Assembly (NCBI RefSeq): GCF_940670685.1 | Contig: NZ_OW711693.1 | Span: 124,001 to 188,000, forward strand | DNA length: 64,000 nucleotides | Direction: 5' to 3' | Origin: Anaeropeptidivorans aminofermentans | GTDB lineage: Bacteria; Bacillota; Clostridia; Lachnospirales; UBA5962 | Part shown: positions 4,367 to 47,707 of the stretch, in pieces | How positions within the stretch are numbered: the first letter of the stretch is position 1 | How the letters are laid out: every line of letters begins with the position of its first letter | Program-made: the position numbers and the translations under genes | Notes under the pieces: model-generated | The model's input: only the letters and a program-made list of their open reading frames with translations | Databases searched by the model: none | Told to the model about the DNA's origin: nothing

Positions 4367-7300
4367 CTATTTCTTGCTTACGCCTAAAATTACGTCTTCG
4401 CCGTTGATGCTCCAAGGTTTTGTATAGCTTCCGCCTTCTTCATTTGAGATGGCGTCTGCCAAGACGTCGGCCTTGATGTTTTCGGCATTTCGTAAAAAGA
4501 TGCCGGCAATGGTTTCGTTGCCAGAATGGAATACCTCGATTCTGTCTGTTACTTCGAAGCCCGCTTCCTTTCTCATGGTCTGTATTTTTGAAATCAGCTC
4601 TCTTACGAAGCCTTCTTCAATCAGCTCCGGTGTCAGATTGGTATCGAGAACGATGGTTACATAGCCGTCGCTTTCGGATACGAAGCCCTCTTTTTGGGCA
4701 GTTTCAAATAATACGTCGTCTAAGGTAAGCTCAACTTCTGTATCGGCGATGGTGGCTTTTACACCGCCTGCGTTTAATTCGTCCATCAGCTTGTTGCCGT
4801 CGGCATTTGCTAAGAATTCACTTATTTTCGGAAGGATTTTTCCGTATTTGGGGCCTAAGGTCCTAAGCTGGGGTTTAAATTTATAGGTTGTGAGCTTTTC
4901 TACTTCTTCAGAGAAGGTCACATTTTTAATATTCAGCTCATCTGCGATGATTTCCTCATACATTTTCGGAAGCTCTGAGGCGGCCTTATAGAACATGTCG
5001 CCGATAGGCTGGCGGTTTTTAATGTTGGCATTGTTTCTGCCGGCGCGGCCTGCAACAACGATTTTAAGCACTAAATCCATGTTCTTTTCAAGGTCTTTAT
5101 CCACAAACTTTTCCTCAAACACGGGGAAGTCCGTTAAATGCACACTCATGGGCGCGTTTTTATCCACAGAAAGCACAAGGTTTTTGTAGATGGATTCCGC
5201 CATAAAGGGGGTGAAAGGCGCCGTTAATTTTGTCACCGTTTCAAGAACCGTATAAAGGGTCATATAGGCGTTTATTTTGTCCTGTTCCATGCCGCTTGCC
5301 CAGAAGCGCTCCCGGCTTCTTCTTACATACCAGTTGCTTAATTCGTCTACGAAATCGCTTAAAGCTCTTGCCGGCTCGAATATTCTGTAGCTTTCAAGGT
5401 TTTCGTCTACAAAGTTGATTAAAGTGTTGAGCTTTGAAAGAATCCATTTGTCAATTGGCGGAAGCTTATCATGCTCTAATTGATATTGGGTCGGGTCAAA
5501 TTTATCGATATTTGCGTAAAGGATATAGAAAGCATAAGTGTTCCAAAGGGTACCCATGTATTTTCTCTGGCTGTCGTTTACCGCTTCGTCGTAGAACCTG
5601 CTTGGAAGCCATGGGGAAGAGTTGGTATAGAAATACCAGCGTATAGCGTCGGCCCCCTGTTTATCCAGAACGTCCCACGGGTTTACAACGTTTCCTAAAT
5701 GCTTTGACATTTTACGGCCGTCTTTATCCTGAACGTGGCCTAAAACGATGCAGTTTTCATAGCTTGACTTTTCAAAAATCAAAGTTGAAATCGCAAGCAA
5801 GGTATAGAACCAGCCTCTCGTCTGGTCAACGGCCTCGGAAATAAAATTTGCAGGGAAGTTCTCCTCGAATATTTCCTTGTTTTCAAAAGGATAATGCCAC
5901 TGGGCGAAAGGCATGGAGCCGGAATCAAACCAGCAGTCGATTACCTCGGAAACCCTGTGCATTTTCTTTCCGCATTTCGGGCAGTCCAGTTCTACCTTAT
6001 CGATATAAGGCTTATGAAGCTCTATATCGTCTGAAACGCCGCCGCCCATATCCTGAAGCTCTTTGATGCTGCCTACGGCGTGCTGATAGCCGCATTCACA
6101 CTGCCAGATAGGAAGAGGTGTTCCCCAGTAACGCTCACGGCTTAATCCCCAGTCAATCACGTTTTCAAGGAATTTACCGAAGCGGCCTGTTTTGATATTT
6201 TCGGGAAGCCAGTTGATGGTATTGTTATTTTTAACAAGCTGGTCTCGTACCTCTGTCATTCTGATGAACCAGGTATCTCTTGCATAATACAAAAGCGGTG
6301 TATCACAGCGCCAGCAGAAAGGATAATTATGGGTATAATCCTCTTTTTTATAAAGGCTGCCGTCTGCTATAAGCTGTTCTACAATAAGGGGGTCGGCATC
6401 TTTTACAAACATTCCGGCCCATTTCACAGGCTCTATAAATTTACCCTGCTCATTTACAAGCTGAACGAAAGGAAGGTCATAAGCCTTTCCTACGGAATAG
6501 TCGTCCTCACCGAAGGCAGGAGCCGTATGAACGATTCCTGTACCGTCGGTTAAGGTTACGTAATCGGCGCAGGCGACATAATAGCCTTTTTTATCAAGAT
6601 TCAGGCCAAAGTCAAAAATAGGCTCATATTCCGTATATTCAAGGTCCTTGCCTGTGCAGGTATCAATAATTTCGTAAGGCTCCAAAAGCACCTTATCTAA
6701 AAGGGCTTCTGCCATGGTGTAAATTCTGCCGCCTGTTTTTACCTTAGCGTATTTTTCAACAGGATTTACAACAAGAGCAATATTGGAAGGAAGGGTCCAC
6801 GGGGTTGTGGTCCAAGCAAGGAAATACTCGTTATCCCGATTCTTTATTTTAAAGCTTACGTATACGGAAGGCTCTGTTACTTCTTTATAGCCCTGAGCAA
6901 CCTCATGGCTTGAAAGGCTTGTTCCGCATCGCGGGCAATAGGGCACGACCTTGTGGCCCTTATATAGAAGGCCTTTATCCCATATTTTCTTGAGAGCCCA
7001 CCATTCGGACTCAATATATTTATTATGATAAGTTACATAAGGGTCGTCCATGTCCGCCCAGAAACCAACCCGGTCGCTCATGGTACGCCATTCGTTTTCG
7101 TATTTCCATACGCTTTCCTTGCATTTTTTGATGAAAGGCTCTACGCCGTATTCTTCTATCTGGGGCTTTCCGCTGATGCCAAGCTGCTTTTCAACTTCAA
7201 GCTCTACAGGAAGGCCGTGGGTATCCCAGCCGGCTTTTCTAAGAACATTATAGCCCTTCATAGTGCGGTATCTTGGAATAAGGTCCTTTACCGCTCTTGT

Positions 7301-7480
7301 AAGCACATGGCCGATATGGGGCTTGCCGTTTGCAGTAGGGGGGCCGTCATAAAAGGTGAAAACCGGCGCCCCTTTCCGAAGCTCTCTGGAGCTTTCAAAT
7401 ACCTTGTTATCTTTCCAGAATTTCTGGATTTCAAGTTCTCTTTCGACAAAATCAAGGTTTGTCGAGACCTTTTGATACAT
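4367..7480 (-). CDS. ileS: Isoleucyl-tRNA synthetase
   Basis: The 1037-residue cytoplasmic enzyme charges tRNA-Ile with isoleucine. The class I signatures are HIGH at residues 55-58 (GKPHIGHVL) and KMSKH near residue 600. The connecting editing domain lies between, and the anticodon-binding domain follows. Cysteine pairs occur in PYCPRCG and in CECGYQH/CPKCGKKM. At about 1037 residues, and with the form PPTANGKPHIGH, it fits the longer type 2 (eukaryote-like) IleRS rather than the roughly 920-residue type 1; that assignment is from length and motif memory only. Type 2 enzymes are often naturally tolerant of mupirocin. A T-box leader, carrying an inserted repeat, precedes it and a terminator follows. 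Confidence 0.97.
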   Translation of the reverse strand: MYQKVSTNLDFVERELEIQKFWKDNKVFESSRELRKGAPVFTFYDGPPTANGKPHIGHVLTRAVKDLIPRYRTMKGYNVLRKAGWDTHGLPVELEVEKQLGISGKPQIEEYGVEPFIKKCKESVWKYENEWRTMSDRVGFWADMDDPYVTYHNKYIESEWWALKKIWDKGLLYKGHKVVPYCPRCGTSLSSHEVAQGYKEVTEPSVYVSFKIKNRDNEYFLAWTTTPWTLPSNIALVVNPVEKYAKVKTGGRIYTMAEALLDKVLLEPYEIIDTCTGKDLEYTEYEPIFDFGLNLDKKGYYVACADYVTLTDGTGIVHTAPAFGEDDYSVGKAYDLPFVQLVNEQGKFIEPVKWAGMFVKDADPLIVEQLIADGSLYKKEDYTHNYPFCWRCDTPLLYYARDTWFIRMTEVRDQLVKNNNTINWLPENIKTGRFGKFLENVIDWGLSRERYWGTPLPIWQCECGYQHAVGSIKELQDMGGGVSDDIELHKPYIDKVELDCPKCGKKMHRVSEVIDCWFDSGSMPFAQWHYPFENKEIFEENFPANFISEAVDQTRGWFYTLLAISTLIFEKSSYENCIVLGHVQDKDGRKMSKHLGNVVNPWDVLDKQGADAIRWYFYTNSSPWLPSRFYDEAVNDSQRKYMGTLWNTYAFYILYANIDKFDPTQYQLEHDKLPPIDKWILSKLNTLINFVDENLESYRIFEPARALSDFVDELSNWYVRRSRERFWASGMEQDKINAYMTLYTVLETVTKLTAPFTPFMAESIYKNLVLSVDKNAPMSVHLTDFPVFEEKFVDKDLEKNMDLVLKIVVAGRAGRNNANIKNRQPIGDMFYKAASELPKMYEEIIADELNIKNVTFSEEVEKLTTYKFKPQLRTLGPKYGKILPKISEFLANADGNKLMDELNAGGVKATIADTEVELTLDDVLFETAQKEGFVSESDGYVTIVLDTNLTPELIEEGFVRELISKIQTMRKEAGFEVTDRIEVFHSGNETIAGIFLRNAENIKADVLADAISNEEGGSYTKPWSINGEDVILGVSKK

Positions 7481-7573: not shown

Positions 7574-8022
7574 ATAAAAAAACCCCTCGCTACAGGGCGA
7601 AGGGTTATATCCGCGGTACCACCTGATTTGGCATAAAAATGCCCGCTCATGCATTTATCGTAAATTTCAAAAAAGACAGGAATAAAAGTCGTATATTTTG
7701 AATGGCCTAATCATAGAGCTTTATATATTGAAGCCGTTTATGAAAAATAGACTTTTATTACATCCTTGAGTAAAATTTACTTTAAACTGGATTCAAAAGG
7801 AACCCATTTATATAAATGCCTTTCGTAACGGGAAAGCGCCGTCCCCTCTTAATCATTTTCATTTTCGGAGGGGCCGCTGATGGTGATAAAAACCTGCGGC
7901 CTGAAACCGGGCTTTCAGCCATATATATAATTAAGTTTTCTAAGTATATATAAGACCCGGTTCTCTTTATAAAGGCTTGTGCCTGCTTCTTTGTCCATTT
8001 CGCTGCGTTTTAAATATAAGTG
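7574..8022 (-). promoter_or_regulatory. T-box riboswitch leader of ileS, interrupted by a repeat element
   Basis: On the minus strand the leader runs from a likely start near 8022 through stem I, with AAAGAGAACCGGG and GGCTGAAAGCCCGG arms and an ATC triplet at 7887-7885 in the specifier position, which fits isoleucine. It ends with the T-box AGGTGGTACCGCGG (7624-7611) and the terminator AACCCTTCGCC/GCGAGGGGTT plus seven T (7602-7576). Between the specifier part and the T-box lies a MITE-like element (7656-7784), making the leader about 450 bases. The leader should allow read-through when uncharged tRNA-Ile accumulates. Confidence 0.9.
7656..7784. repeat. MITE-like element inside the ileS T-box leader (A type)
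   Basis: The ends are TATCGTAAATTTC and AAATTTACTTTA, slightly degraded forms of the family termini. The body has AATAAAAGTCGTATATTTTG, the TGGCCTAATCATAGAGC centre, AAGCCGTTTATGAAAAATAG and ACTTTTATTACATCCTTGAG, as in the element at 1589-1712. It lies just before the antiterminator region in transcript order. Confidence 0.85.
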
Positions 8023-9169: not shown

Positions 9170-9940
9170 TTTGGCGTAAATCCAAATCATGACCACCCGT
9201 CAAACGGGTGGTTTGCTCGCCCCTATAAGGGGCTGTTACCGGCCAGCGCCTAAAGACGCTGGCTTTCACTTTCGTTCAAGCCTTTATTGCCCTTGACTCG
9301 TCGCCACCCCTAAAAGGGTGTCCGTAATACTGGCTACCCCTTGAAGGGGTCCTCATACTCTTTCACACTCAGTTTATCCATCGCTATATCATAGTTTTCT
9401 TGTTCCTGAATGTATTTCTTTATGGTTGCCTCATTCAGTCCTACTGTGCTCACGTAATAACCTTCTGCCCAAAAGTGTCTATTCCCGAACTTATACTTTA
9501 AGTTTGCGTGCTGGTCAAAAATTATGAGTGCACTTTTCCCTTTTAAATATCCCATAAACTGAGAAACACTCAGCTTCGGTGGTATGCTGACCAGCATGTG
9601 TACATGGTCGCGCATGAGATGCCCTTCGATAATCTCTACTCCTTTGTATCTGCAAAGTTGTTTTAAAATATCTCTGACACTTTCTTTGTATTGATTATAA
9701 ATAATTTTTCTCCTATACTTAGGAGTGAACACTATGTGGTACTTACACATCCACTTGGTGTGGGCTAAACTATTTGCCTTGTTGGCCATGAAAATCACCT
9801 TTCCTTTCGTTATAATCTGGCTTGAACAACCTTATTATAACGGAAAGGTGATTTTTTTGTATAACAAACACCGCGCACCCGCATAGCGGGTGGTTATTAT
9901 TTCGCACGCTTTGCGTGCTCAACTGGGTCACGACCCATAA
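9170..9940 (-). mobile_element. IS200/IS605-group insertion sequence (tnpA only)
   Basis: A single Y1 transposase gene is flanked by subterminal hairpins: ACCACCC/GGGTGGT at 9192-9212 on the left and CACCCGC/GCGGGTG at 9876-9892 on the right. There are no terminal inverted repeats, as expected of this group. Further GC-rich hairpins (9215-9330) follow the transposase gene. Exact ends are uncertain by about 20 bases. No tnpB or omega-RNA is present. Confidence 0.8.
9334..9789 (-). CDS. tnpA: IS200-type Y1 (HUH) transposase
   Basis: The 151-residue protein has the HUH motif His62-Val-His64 (RDHVHMLVSIP) and the catalytic Tyr126 in KKYIQEQENY. Its length matches intact IS200 transposases, which move single-stranded DNA by a tyrosine-DNA intermediate. 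I chose the ATG at 9789 because AAAGGTG stands 6 bases before it; an in-frame ATG three codons upstream overlaps that site. No frameshift is seen, so the element may be active. Confidence 0.93.
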   Translation of the reverse strand: MANKANSLAHTKWMCKYHIVFTPKYRRKIIYNQYKESVRDILKQLCRYKGVEIIEGHLMRDHVHMLVSIPPKLSVSQFMGYLKGKSALIIFDQHANLKYKFGNRHFWAEGYYVSTVGLNEATIKKYIQEQENYDIAMDKLSVKEYEDPFKG

Positions 9941-12612: not shown

Positions 12613-12930
12613 AATCCCACAACCTTTCTACTGATTCGGATATATAAGATGAAGTTGATAAACATGCTGTAAGTTTTATTAAAATAATGCCTAAAAGAAG
12701 ATTTCTTCCATATGGTTCTCTAATAGAACTATATTTATAGTATACCATAATATAATTTCTATAAATATATTTATAGAGCTAAATTTCAATGCTGTATCAG
12801 GGATTTCCCTTATAGAAAGCGGCTCCCCTAGGCGTAGAACCGCGCCGCTCCATAAATAAAATGAAGAAAACCCTGCATAGAATTCCATTCGTAGTATTTC
12901 TTATTTCCCCAATATTCAAACCCCAAGAAA
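12613..12930. other. Upstream region of the reductase gene
   Basis: AT-rich DNA with no gene. On the minus strand TGGTATACT near 12740 resembles an extended -10 element and could be the reductase promoter, but no good -35 accompanies it. ATAGAAATTATATTATGG overlaps it. Confidence 0.35.
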
Positions 12931-13330
12931 CGAAATTTGTATTGTGACCAATCCAAAGCGTCCCTCCTTAAGCTCACAAGGCATCTTTGAAGCACATTTG
13001 TTCTTTCTCTAAGGTCGTGCCTTTTCGTATGAACGAAATTTGTATTGTGACCAATCCAAAGCGTCCCTCCCTAAGCTCACAGGACATTTTTGAAGCACAT
13101 CTGTCCTGTTGTCTAAGGTTGTGCCTTTTCGTATGAACAAAATTTGTATTGCGGCCAATCCAAACCGTCACCCCCTAAGCTCACAGGACATTTTTGAAGC
13201 ACATCTGTCCTGTTGTCTAAGGTCGTGCCTTTTCGTATGAACGAAATTTGTATTGTGACCAATCCAAAGCGTCCCTCCCTAAGCTCACAGGGCATCTTTG
13301 AAGCATATCTGTCCTGTTTTCTAAGGTCAA
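12931..13330. repeat. Tandem array, four copies of a 104-bp unit
   Basis: Copies start at CGAAATTTGTATTG, at 12931, 13034, 13138 and 13242 (spacing 103-104); the last is cut short. Each unit contains ACAGGACA and TGTCCTGT arms separated by about 16 bases, and ends GTGCCTTTTCGTATGAA. Copies differ at a few positions, including CCAATCCAAACCGTCACC in the third. The open frames across it follow the repeat and are not genes. Confidence 0.92.
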
Positions 13331-15532: not shown

Positions 15533-15856
15533 AGACCTATTTTACCACAGGTTTTTGCCTCTTTCAAATCATAGGCACAAAAAGGGCTTTTTTATGCCTT
15601 TCAGGCAAAAGCTGTTAATTTATATTAAATGACATATGTAAATCTTTTTAAAAGAGTGCCTTTTTATGGTTAATAAACTTGTTAGTCATCAAATTTCTGA
15701 TGTAAAATATAAATAAACTAGTTTATTTTATATTCTTGCCGGTTTGACTATTTTCAGACACTGCCTATTTTAAAGAATAAATTTTAAGCTTATGCTAAAA
15801 ATATAAACGTAAAAGAATACAGATTGTTTATAAGATTAAACTTTATTTATGCCATG

Positions 15857-15885
15857 TTGACTTTGTTTTTTATATACTGTATAAT
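15857..15885 (+). promoter_or_regulatory. Strong promoter ahead of the 89-bp array and proS T-box
   Basis: TTGACT (15857-15862), 17-base spacer, perfect TATAAT (15880-15885). Transcription should start near 15892, the first base of the tandem array, and run into the proS T-box leader. Confidence 0.75.
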
Positions 15886-15891
15886 CTGAAT

Positions 15892-16310
15892 AAAATCAAG
15901 CTAGGCTTGATTTTATTCATGAATATATTTTGCTATGCAAAATGTATGAATGGAATTGTCGCATAAGAAGTATTTCGTATAAAATCAAGCCATGCTTGAT
16001 TTTATACATGAATATATTTTGCTGTGCAAAATGTATGAATGGAATTGTCGTATGAGAAGTATTTCGTATAAAATCAAGCCATGCTTGATTTTATACATGA
16101 ATATATTTTGCTGTGCAAAATGTATGAATGGAATTGTCGTATGAGAAGCATTTCGAATAAAATCAAGCTATGATTGATTTTATACATGAATATATTTTGC
16201 TGTGCAAAATGTATGAATGGAATTGTCGTATGAGAAGCATTTCGTATAAAATCAAGCTATGCTTGATTTTATACATGAATATATTTTGCTATGCAAAATA
16301 TATTCATTCG
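15892..16310. repeat. Tandem array, five copies of an 89-bp palindromic unit
   Basis: Units begin at 15892, 15981, 16070, 16159 and 16248, an exact 89-base period; the fifth is partial. Each starts with the hairpin AAAATCAAG/CTTGATTTT and has a second hairpin, ATTTTGC TGT GCAAAAT. The last copy ends in a variant ATATATTCATTCG. A short open frame at 16170 is made of repeat sequence. Confidence 0.93.
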
Positions 16311-16359
16311 TTTACGGCTATGATACAATATCTTTTAGCTAAAGACTGTGATAAAGGAA

Positions 16360-16573
16360 TAGTAATATTATAACTTTCATGGAATTTTTAATTCCCAGAG
16401 AGGGGGCGGAAGGTGAAAGCTCCCGTTAGTATAATATGAACCCGCCTTTTAGTCCTTTGGGAAAGAACCAAAGCGCAAGCCTGCGTTAAAGGGCATAGAG
16501 ATAGTATTTATACTAATTAGGATGGTACCGTCGGATATGTCCGGCTCCTTTTGGGAGCCGGACTTTTTTTATT
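16360..16573 (+). promoter_or_regulatory. T-box riboswitch leader, probably for proS
   Basis: The AGAGAG and GGTGAAAGC elements of stem I (from about 16390) are followed by GAACCCGCC, where CCC can serve as a proline specifier. The T-box reads ATTAGGATGGTACCGTCGG (16515-16533), a slightly unusual form with GATGG. The terminator GTCCGGCTCC/GGAGCCGGAC with eight T ends at 16570. The next gene on this strand is proS, but 555 bases separate them, including a gene remnant and a MITE-like element. Confidence 0.82.
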
Positions 16574-21908: not shown

Positions 21909-22136
21909 TATAGTAAATTTCAAATGAAACAGGAATAAAAATCGTATATTTTATGCTTAGTGAACCTGGAAACACTTACAGGGAAACTGTTAAAGTGTTT
22001 TCAGGCGAACGCCCCTTATAGCCAACAAAGATATATTAATCTTTGTTGGCTATGAATGGCTTAAACATAGCAATTCTATATATTTAAGCCGTTTATGAAA
22101 ATAGGTTTTCTTACTACCTTAAAACGGGTTTACTTT
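21909..22136. repeat. MITE-like element, long A type
   Basis: From TATAGTAAATTTC to GGGTTTACTTTA. The added module TTAGTGAACCTGGAAACACT through CAACAAAGAT and ATCTTTGTTGGCTATGAATG is complete. It is the near-complement of 47476-47707. It fills the gap after the stalk-domain gene. Confidence 0.85.
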
Positions 22137-23442: not shown

Positions 23443-23760
23443 GGGAGTATACACTCCTTGGAGTGTATACTCCCGAATATAATCCGCGAAGCGGATTGTA
23501 TGAGTATAAAATTACGAATACAATTTACTTTGTAAATTGTATGAGGGGAACCAAGAAAATAAGAAGGAGTGTATATTCCCGAATACAACCCGCGAAGCGG
23601 ATTGTATGAGTATAAAATTACGAATACAATTTACTTTGTAAATTGTGTGAGGGGAACCAAGAAAATAAGAAGGAGTGTATACTCCCGAATATAATCCGCG
23701 AAGCGGATTGTATGAGTATAAAATTACGAATATAATTACCAATATGTTTTGCAAAGCAAA
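23443..23760. repeat. Tandem array, three copies of a 106-bp palindromic unit
   Basis: Units start with GAGTGTATACTCCC (or TATTCCC) at 23461, 23567 and 23673, an exact 106-base period. Each holds the hairpins AATCCGC GAA GCGGATT and ACAATTTAC TTT GTAAATTGT; the third unit is incomplete. The first is preceded by GGGAGTATACACTCC, making a perfect 15-bp inverted repeat (23443-23474) at the predicted transcript start. The short minus-strand frames here follow the repeat. Confidence 0.92.
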
Positions 23761-23909
23761 GTGTGTTTCTAAAAGCCAGCCAATAATGATAAAATCATTA
23801 CTTTACGGATTAAACGTATGACCGACCTATAAATTGAATATCCTAAACCATATCAATAAATATTATTTGATAAATTTTTTAAAGAACCTTTGTAAAGGAG
23901 GGTTTTACT

Positions 23910-47475: not shown

Positions 47476-47707
47476 TAAAGTAAATTTCACAGAAGGATGT
47501 AATAAAAATCTATTTTTCATAAATGGTTTAACCATATAGAATCCCTATGCTTAAGCCATTCATAGCCAACAAAGATTAAAATAGCTTTGTTGGCTATAAG
47601 AGGGCGTTCGCCTGAAAACGCTTTAACAGTTTCCCTGTAAGTGTTTTCAGGTTCACTAAGCATAAAACATACAATTTTTATTACTGTTTCATTTGAAATT
47701 GACTATA
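47476..47707. repeat. MITE-like element, long A type, inverted
   Basis: TAAAGTAAATTTCACAG to TTGAAATTGACTATA. It contains CATTCATAGCCAACAAAGAT, CTTTGTTGGCTATAAG, and GAAAACGCTTTAACAGTTTC, the near-complement of 21909-22136. Confidence 0.87.

Follow-up and report, generated by a model that had tools for sequence, protein, structure and literature searches.

The single isoleucyl-tRNA synthetase gene of Anaeropeptidivorans aminofermentans is preceded by a T-box leader that carries, in the linker between its decoding and sensing domains, a 125-bp copy of a repeat family dispersed through the same genome. We consider it likely that this leader is a genuine transcriptional T-box for tRNA-Ile, that the element inserted into an accessory hairpin of the linker and folds aside, and that ileS is still induced on isoleucine starvation. 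According to this explanation, the insertion would have been tolerated because it fell in a length-variable part of the switch.

The ileS gene and its T-box leader

Within the stretch of 64,000 nucleotides analyzed here (hereafter the window), ileS occupies positions 4367-7480 and encodes a protein of 1037 aa with the Pfam domains tRNA-synt_1 and Anticodon_1; the gene and all leader features described below lie on the minus strand. It is the sole ileS of the 3.76-Mb single-contig genome; none of the remaining matches exceeds 35% identity, and these represent other synthetases. The possibility of a second ileS, which would make the T-box leader less necessary, was considered and rejected, there being none in the genome. 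The best promoter in the region, TTTACA-17-TATAAT (8057-8029), matches 11 of 12 consensus positions, a consensus match that makes its function putative, and lies upstream of Stem I. Transcription starting downstream of the element, which would remove the case for an interrupted riboswitch, finds no support, since the only strong promoter match is this one.

A search of this region with the Rfam T-box model RF00230 matched positions 8012-7590 over the full model length with 54.9 bits and an E value of 3.4e-11. This falls short of the Rfam gathering score (93), and the leader is unreported by Rfam at the default threshold. The CM alignment assigns positions 7876-8012 to Stem I, with an AUC specifier at 7887-7885, and 7826-7842 to the Stem IIA/B pseudoknot region (ACGGCGCUUUCCCGUUA); between the two lies Stem II (7843-7873), whose CCCC/GGGG helix lacks the AGUA of the S-turn. 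A long insert then separates model positions 148 and 149. Beyond it, the purine string GAGCG (7644-7648) fits the RRRxG motif defined for Stem III (PMC7583486) and is followed by Stem III itself (GGCAUUUUUAUGCC, 7630-7643, pair probability 0.98) and an AA, the whole succession running from 7648 to 7628. The antiterminator (7593-7625) consists of helix A1 (CAGG/CCUG), the bulge UGGUACC, and helix A2 (GCGGA/UUCGC). The UGGU at 7621-7618 is complementary to the ACCA end of tRNA, and A1/A2 overlap an intrinsic terminator with its T run (7574-7606), the 10-pair stem of which spans 7606-7581. The GAGCG string, the UGGU bulge, A1/A2 and the terminator are all intact in sequence.

The genome carries two identical genes for tRNA-Ile(GAU) with discriminator A (A73), and both the AUC specifier and the bulge UGGU fit this tRNA. 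The leader thus has the marks of a T-box, namely a specifier upstream of ileS with a matching tRNA and a UGGN bulge in a terminator-overlapping antiterminator, and it resembles other transcriptional ileS T-boxes (RF00230) in its series of Stem I with AUC, Stem II, IIA/B, purine string, antiterminator and terminator. The preliminary description of a mobile element inside an ileS T-box, with promoter, specifier-bearing Stem I, T-box and terminator, was therefore borne out, and the element is where it had been placed.

The inserted element and its family

The element proper is an imperfect palindrome of 125 bp (7658-7782), bordered by TA at 7656-7657 and 7783-7784; the 129 bp first given for it counts both TA copies. 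Because it has matches at about 40 other sites in the genome, nearly all at 83-88% identity (40 of 311 candidates scored), it is no chance sequence. An alignment of 30 copies with their flanks yielded the consensus ends TATAGTAAATTT...AAATTTACTATA, outside which the flanks are unrelated. The family is short, non-coding and multi-copy, with terminal inverted repeats and arms that pair over most of their length, as MITEs are. TA borders the ileS copy and nearly all of the 30 aligned copies, a pattern in which a 2-bp duplication is indistinguishable from terminal sequence without an empty allele. The element resembles MITEs of the Tc1/mariner-IS630 type: it is short and non-coding, has many copies, is bordered by TA and ends in inverted repeats (TAGTAAATTT...). 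It differs from that type in the lack of a DDE_3 transposase in the genome: an IS630 parent was sought through this domain and no match was found, so a Tc1/mariner-IS630 parentage stays putative. The autonomous source may have been lost from the genome. The family was undetected in 38 related genomes, where the leader as query gave, for its element part, a single 22-base match in one genome.

A scan of the leader strand found no terminator-like site in the element. A promoter inside it was also considered and rejected, as none passed the scan on that strand; a transcript from such a promoter would meet the terminator without Stem I.

The window holds other repeats as well. Apparently nested copies of the element, split near one internal point by other sequence, occur at 47476-47707 and 21909-22136, and elsewhere at 6411-6641 of L192 and 5014-5245 of L186; in one split copy in the window, the intervening sequence has inverted arms of the AGCCAACAAAGAT type. 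An IS200-type Y1 transposase gene (9334-9798) lies in a repeat-rich stretch near ileS. Tandem 89-bp units (15801-16334) end directly before a T-box leader at 16339-16552, and two more tandem arrays, at 12902-13327 and 23460-23777, have repeat units of about 104 and 106 bp.

As an event, one insertion into some T-box of this genome is unremarkable, because the density of elements makes it expected. Twenty 20-kb stretches plus the window, 464 kb in all, contained 58 related elements, 57 of which a simple ORF rule classes as non-coding. From these rough numbers, about 1.7 elements would be expected in 16 T-box cores, with a probability of 0.82 for at least one; for near-full-length copies like that of ileS, the expectation is 0.15. 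No element was detected inside the genome's other T-box cores, and a search for orphan T-box motifs that would mark further interrupted T-boxes found none, all eight exact motif matches falling on known T-box hits.

Insertion site and predicted fold

The element sits in the interdomain linker, 3' of Stem I, Stem II and IIA/B and 5' of the purine string and Stem III, so that its earlier placement between the specifier and the T-box is broadly right but imprecise. The linker plus Stem III, taken as the distance between the IIA/B end (CGUUA) and the T-box, is 202 nt long here versus 27-75 nt in 28 comparators, which comprise 17 ileS leaders of relatives and 11 other T-boxes of this genome (four further T-boxes of its own, unmeasurable by the simple rule, were left out). 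Removal of the element and one TA brings this distance to 75 nt, equal to the longest comparator.

Uninterrupted T-boxes precede ileS in 17 relatives. Because these leaders have accessory hairpins of differing sequence at the insertion point, or none, the site is naturally variable. Relatives without a T-box in their element-free leaders would have spoken against the interruption; those found do have T-boxes, so the claim stands. The relatives returned included no other species of the genus and no true empty site, and the closest ileS protein was 75% identical.

Long inserts at this point of the linker also occur naturally elsewhere. The top 150 T-box hits across 56 genomes of the order include a group of 318-368 nt; the seven members that we read (L207-L213), from several genomes, all have CUC specifiers and, at the model position of the ileS insert, extra segments of about 100-150 nt. 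These inserts hold a second T-box-like sequence and a terminator, and the seven are, from their sequence, apparently partially tandem leucine-type T-boxes, in which a single Stem I precedes two T-box/terminator modules. A review of T-boxes describes insertions in every domain and names partially tandem T-boxes as having an unknown mode of action (PMC7583486). The likeness in position would allow the extra ileS segment to be an ordinary domain of a long T-box, for example a partially tandem one, with no insertion at all. We regard this as very improbable: the ileS insert has neither a second T-box nor a terminator but is a MITE, it belongs to a dispersed repeat family with unrelated flanks and TA at both ends, and the 17 related ileS leaders are without it.

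The preliminary description had considered a riboswitch tolerant of a mobile hairpin to be novel. That novelty is weakened by the natural inserts of the order and by the trp operon leader of Streptococcus pneumoniae, in which a BOX repeat lies between two T-boxes and is co-transcribed with the leader, RNA-seq having been taken as a sign of continued function (PMC3049150). The two cases are alike in placing a small interspersed hairpin repeat in a T-box-controlled leader. They differ in that BOX separates two complete T-boxes, whereas the ileS element splits one T-box, separating its decoding domain from its sensing domain. In the literature searched, we found no description of a mobile element inside a single T-box, the BOX repeat being the nearest case.

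The original suggestion was that the element could form a side branch and so hold the T-box halves close together, and structure prediction agrees. In the lowest-energy fold, it forms a hairpin beside a small hairpin, both inside an accessory hairpin of the linker (7651-7819) that is closed by the helix GCAUUUAU (7819-7812)/AUAAAUGC (7658-7651) and is also seen in the pair probabilities. In the whole leader, the pair probability of this linker helix is 0.975 with the element and 0.981 without it. Other predicted helices are likewise unchanged: those of the Stem I apical helix, Stem II, Stem III and the terminator have the same or nearly the same pair probabilities in both versions, the terminator reaching 0.95 with the element present or absent. 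When the 3' domain is folded by itself, the linker helix reaches a probability of 0.88 with the element and 0.97 without it; with 200 shuffled inserts, the median drops to 0.13, and in 75% of cases the value is below 0.5. Since most shuffled inserts disrupt this helix, it matters for a closed linker that the insert is a hairpin. Helix A2 in the same domain is less sensitive (0.72 with the element, 0.76 without, median 0.62 with shuffled inserts), and Stem III outlasts most shuffled inserts. The prediction is thus of a side arm, with the T-box halves still adjacent. These calculations say nothing on switching, because the antiterminator does not form in the whole-leader fold, with or without the element; in this single-strand fold, which leaves aside tRNA, pseudoknots and kinetics, the probability of A1/A2 is near zero in either version.

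Decoding half and probable persistence of regulation

The decoding half of the leader has diverged. The AGUA motifs of Stem I and of Stem II are each present in 16 of the 17 related ileS leaders, and both are missing here; the S-turn signature of AGUA with GAA in Stems I and II, a common motif of T-boxes and not a strict requirement, is here without its AGUA half in both stems. In addition, an extra A+U-rich hairpin (UAUAUAUACUUAGAAAACUUAAUUAUAUAUA) occupies the Stem I apical loop, which normally contacts the tRNA elbow. Extra apical-loop hairpins apparently also occur in two other T-boxes of the genome (L059 and L060). The leader thus differs from usual ileS T-boxes (RF00230) in its missing AGUA motifs and its additional apical hairpin as well as in its IIA/B-to-T-box distance.

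These two features and a CM score below the curated cut-off count against a working switch and favor decay, in which the decoding half binds tRNA-Ile poorly and ileS is expressed through constitutive leakage of the terminator; regulation would have been lost or weak before the insertion, which was tolerated for that reason, or the insertion would itself have begun the decay. In another ileS T-box, a change of the Stem II S-turn adenosine cost more than 1,000-fold in tRNA binding (PMC7583486). We nevertheless find decay unlikely, though a serious rival. The specifier, IIA/B, purine string, UGGU, A1/A2 and 10-pair terminator have all been kept, and the terminator is the part that a decaying attenuator, placed ahead of an essential gene, should lose early on. 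Moreover, three other T-box matches of this genome (L061, L065 and L067) also lack both AGUA motifs, so that the divergence is partly a trait of the genome and may reflect lineage drift.

The preliminary description also raised the possibility that the riboswitch has been retuned by the element. The geometry permits it, since a predicted long hairpin between the decoding domain and the discriminator would lengthen by about 127 nt the stretch transcribed after tRNA binds and before termination is decided, or could serve as a processing site, and selection would then keep it. The element itself gave no sign of pairing constraint: 7 of 11 altered pairs are broken in the ileS copy versus 75 of 97 in the other copies (p 0.46). 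One A-U to G-C pair looked like a compensatory change and was rejected as such, as each single change occurs in another copy and the overall test was negative. The ileS copy is also the most diverged of the 30 aligned, with 18 differences from the consensus versus a mean of 5.9, a rank that is indicative only because the copies were picked by similarity to the ileS copy and the consensus excludes it. With no trace of selection, retuning is quite improbable, and the divergence and unconstrained pairing fit age and drift. It is also doubtful that the T-box of this essential gene both works with a transposable hairpin between its tRNA-binding domains and has had its kinetics altered by the added length, through a longer time for tRNA binding ahead of the antitermination decision.

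A working leader with the element folded aside is favored by the intact sensing parts and by an intact terminator standing ahead of an essential gene that has no second copy. Because the only ileS sits behind a strong terminator, some read-through must occur. We propose that a non-autonomous inverted-repeat element with TA borders entered the accessory hairpin of the interdomain linker and that its self-folding would keep the linker ends adjacent. Uncharged tRNA-Ile could then still base-pair at both sites, through its anticodon with the AUC of Stem I and through its ACCA end with the UGGU of the antiterminator, and isoleucine starvation would still induce ileS. From the predicted fold and the retained parts, we infer that the switch probably still works despite the element.

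The ileS leader is thus a natural insertion experiment on how rigid the spacing between the decoding and sensing domains of a T-box is. If it is still responsive to tRNA, the bound tRNA, and not the length of the linker, would set the geometry.
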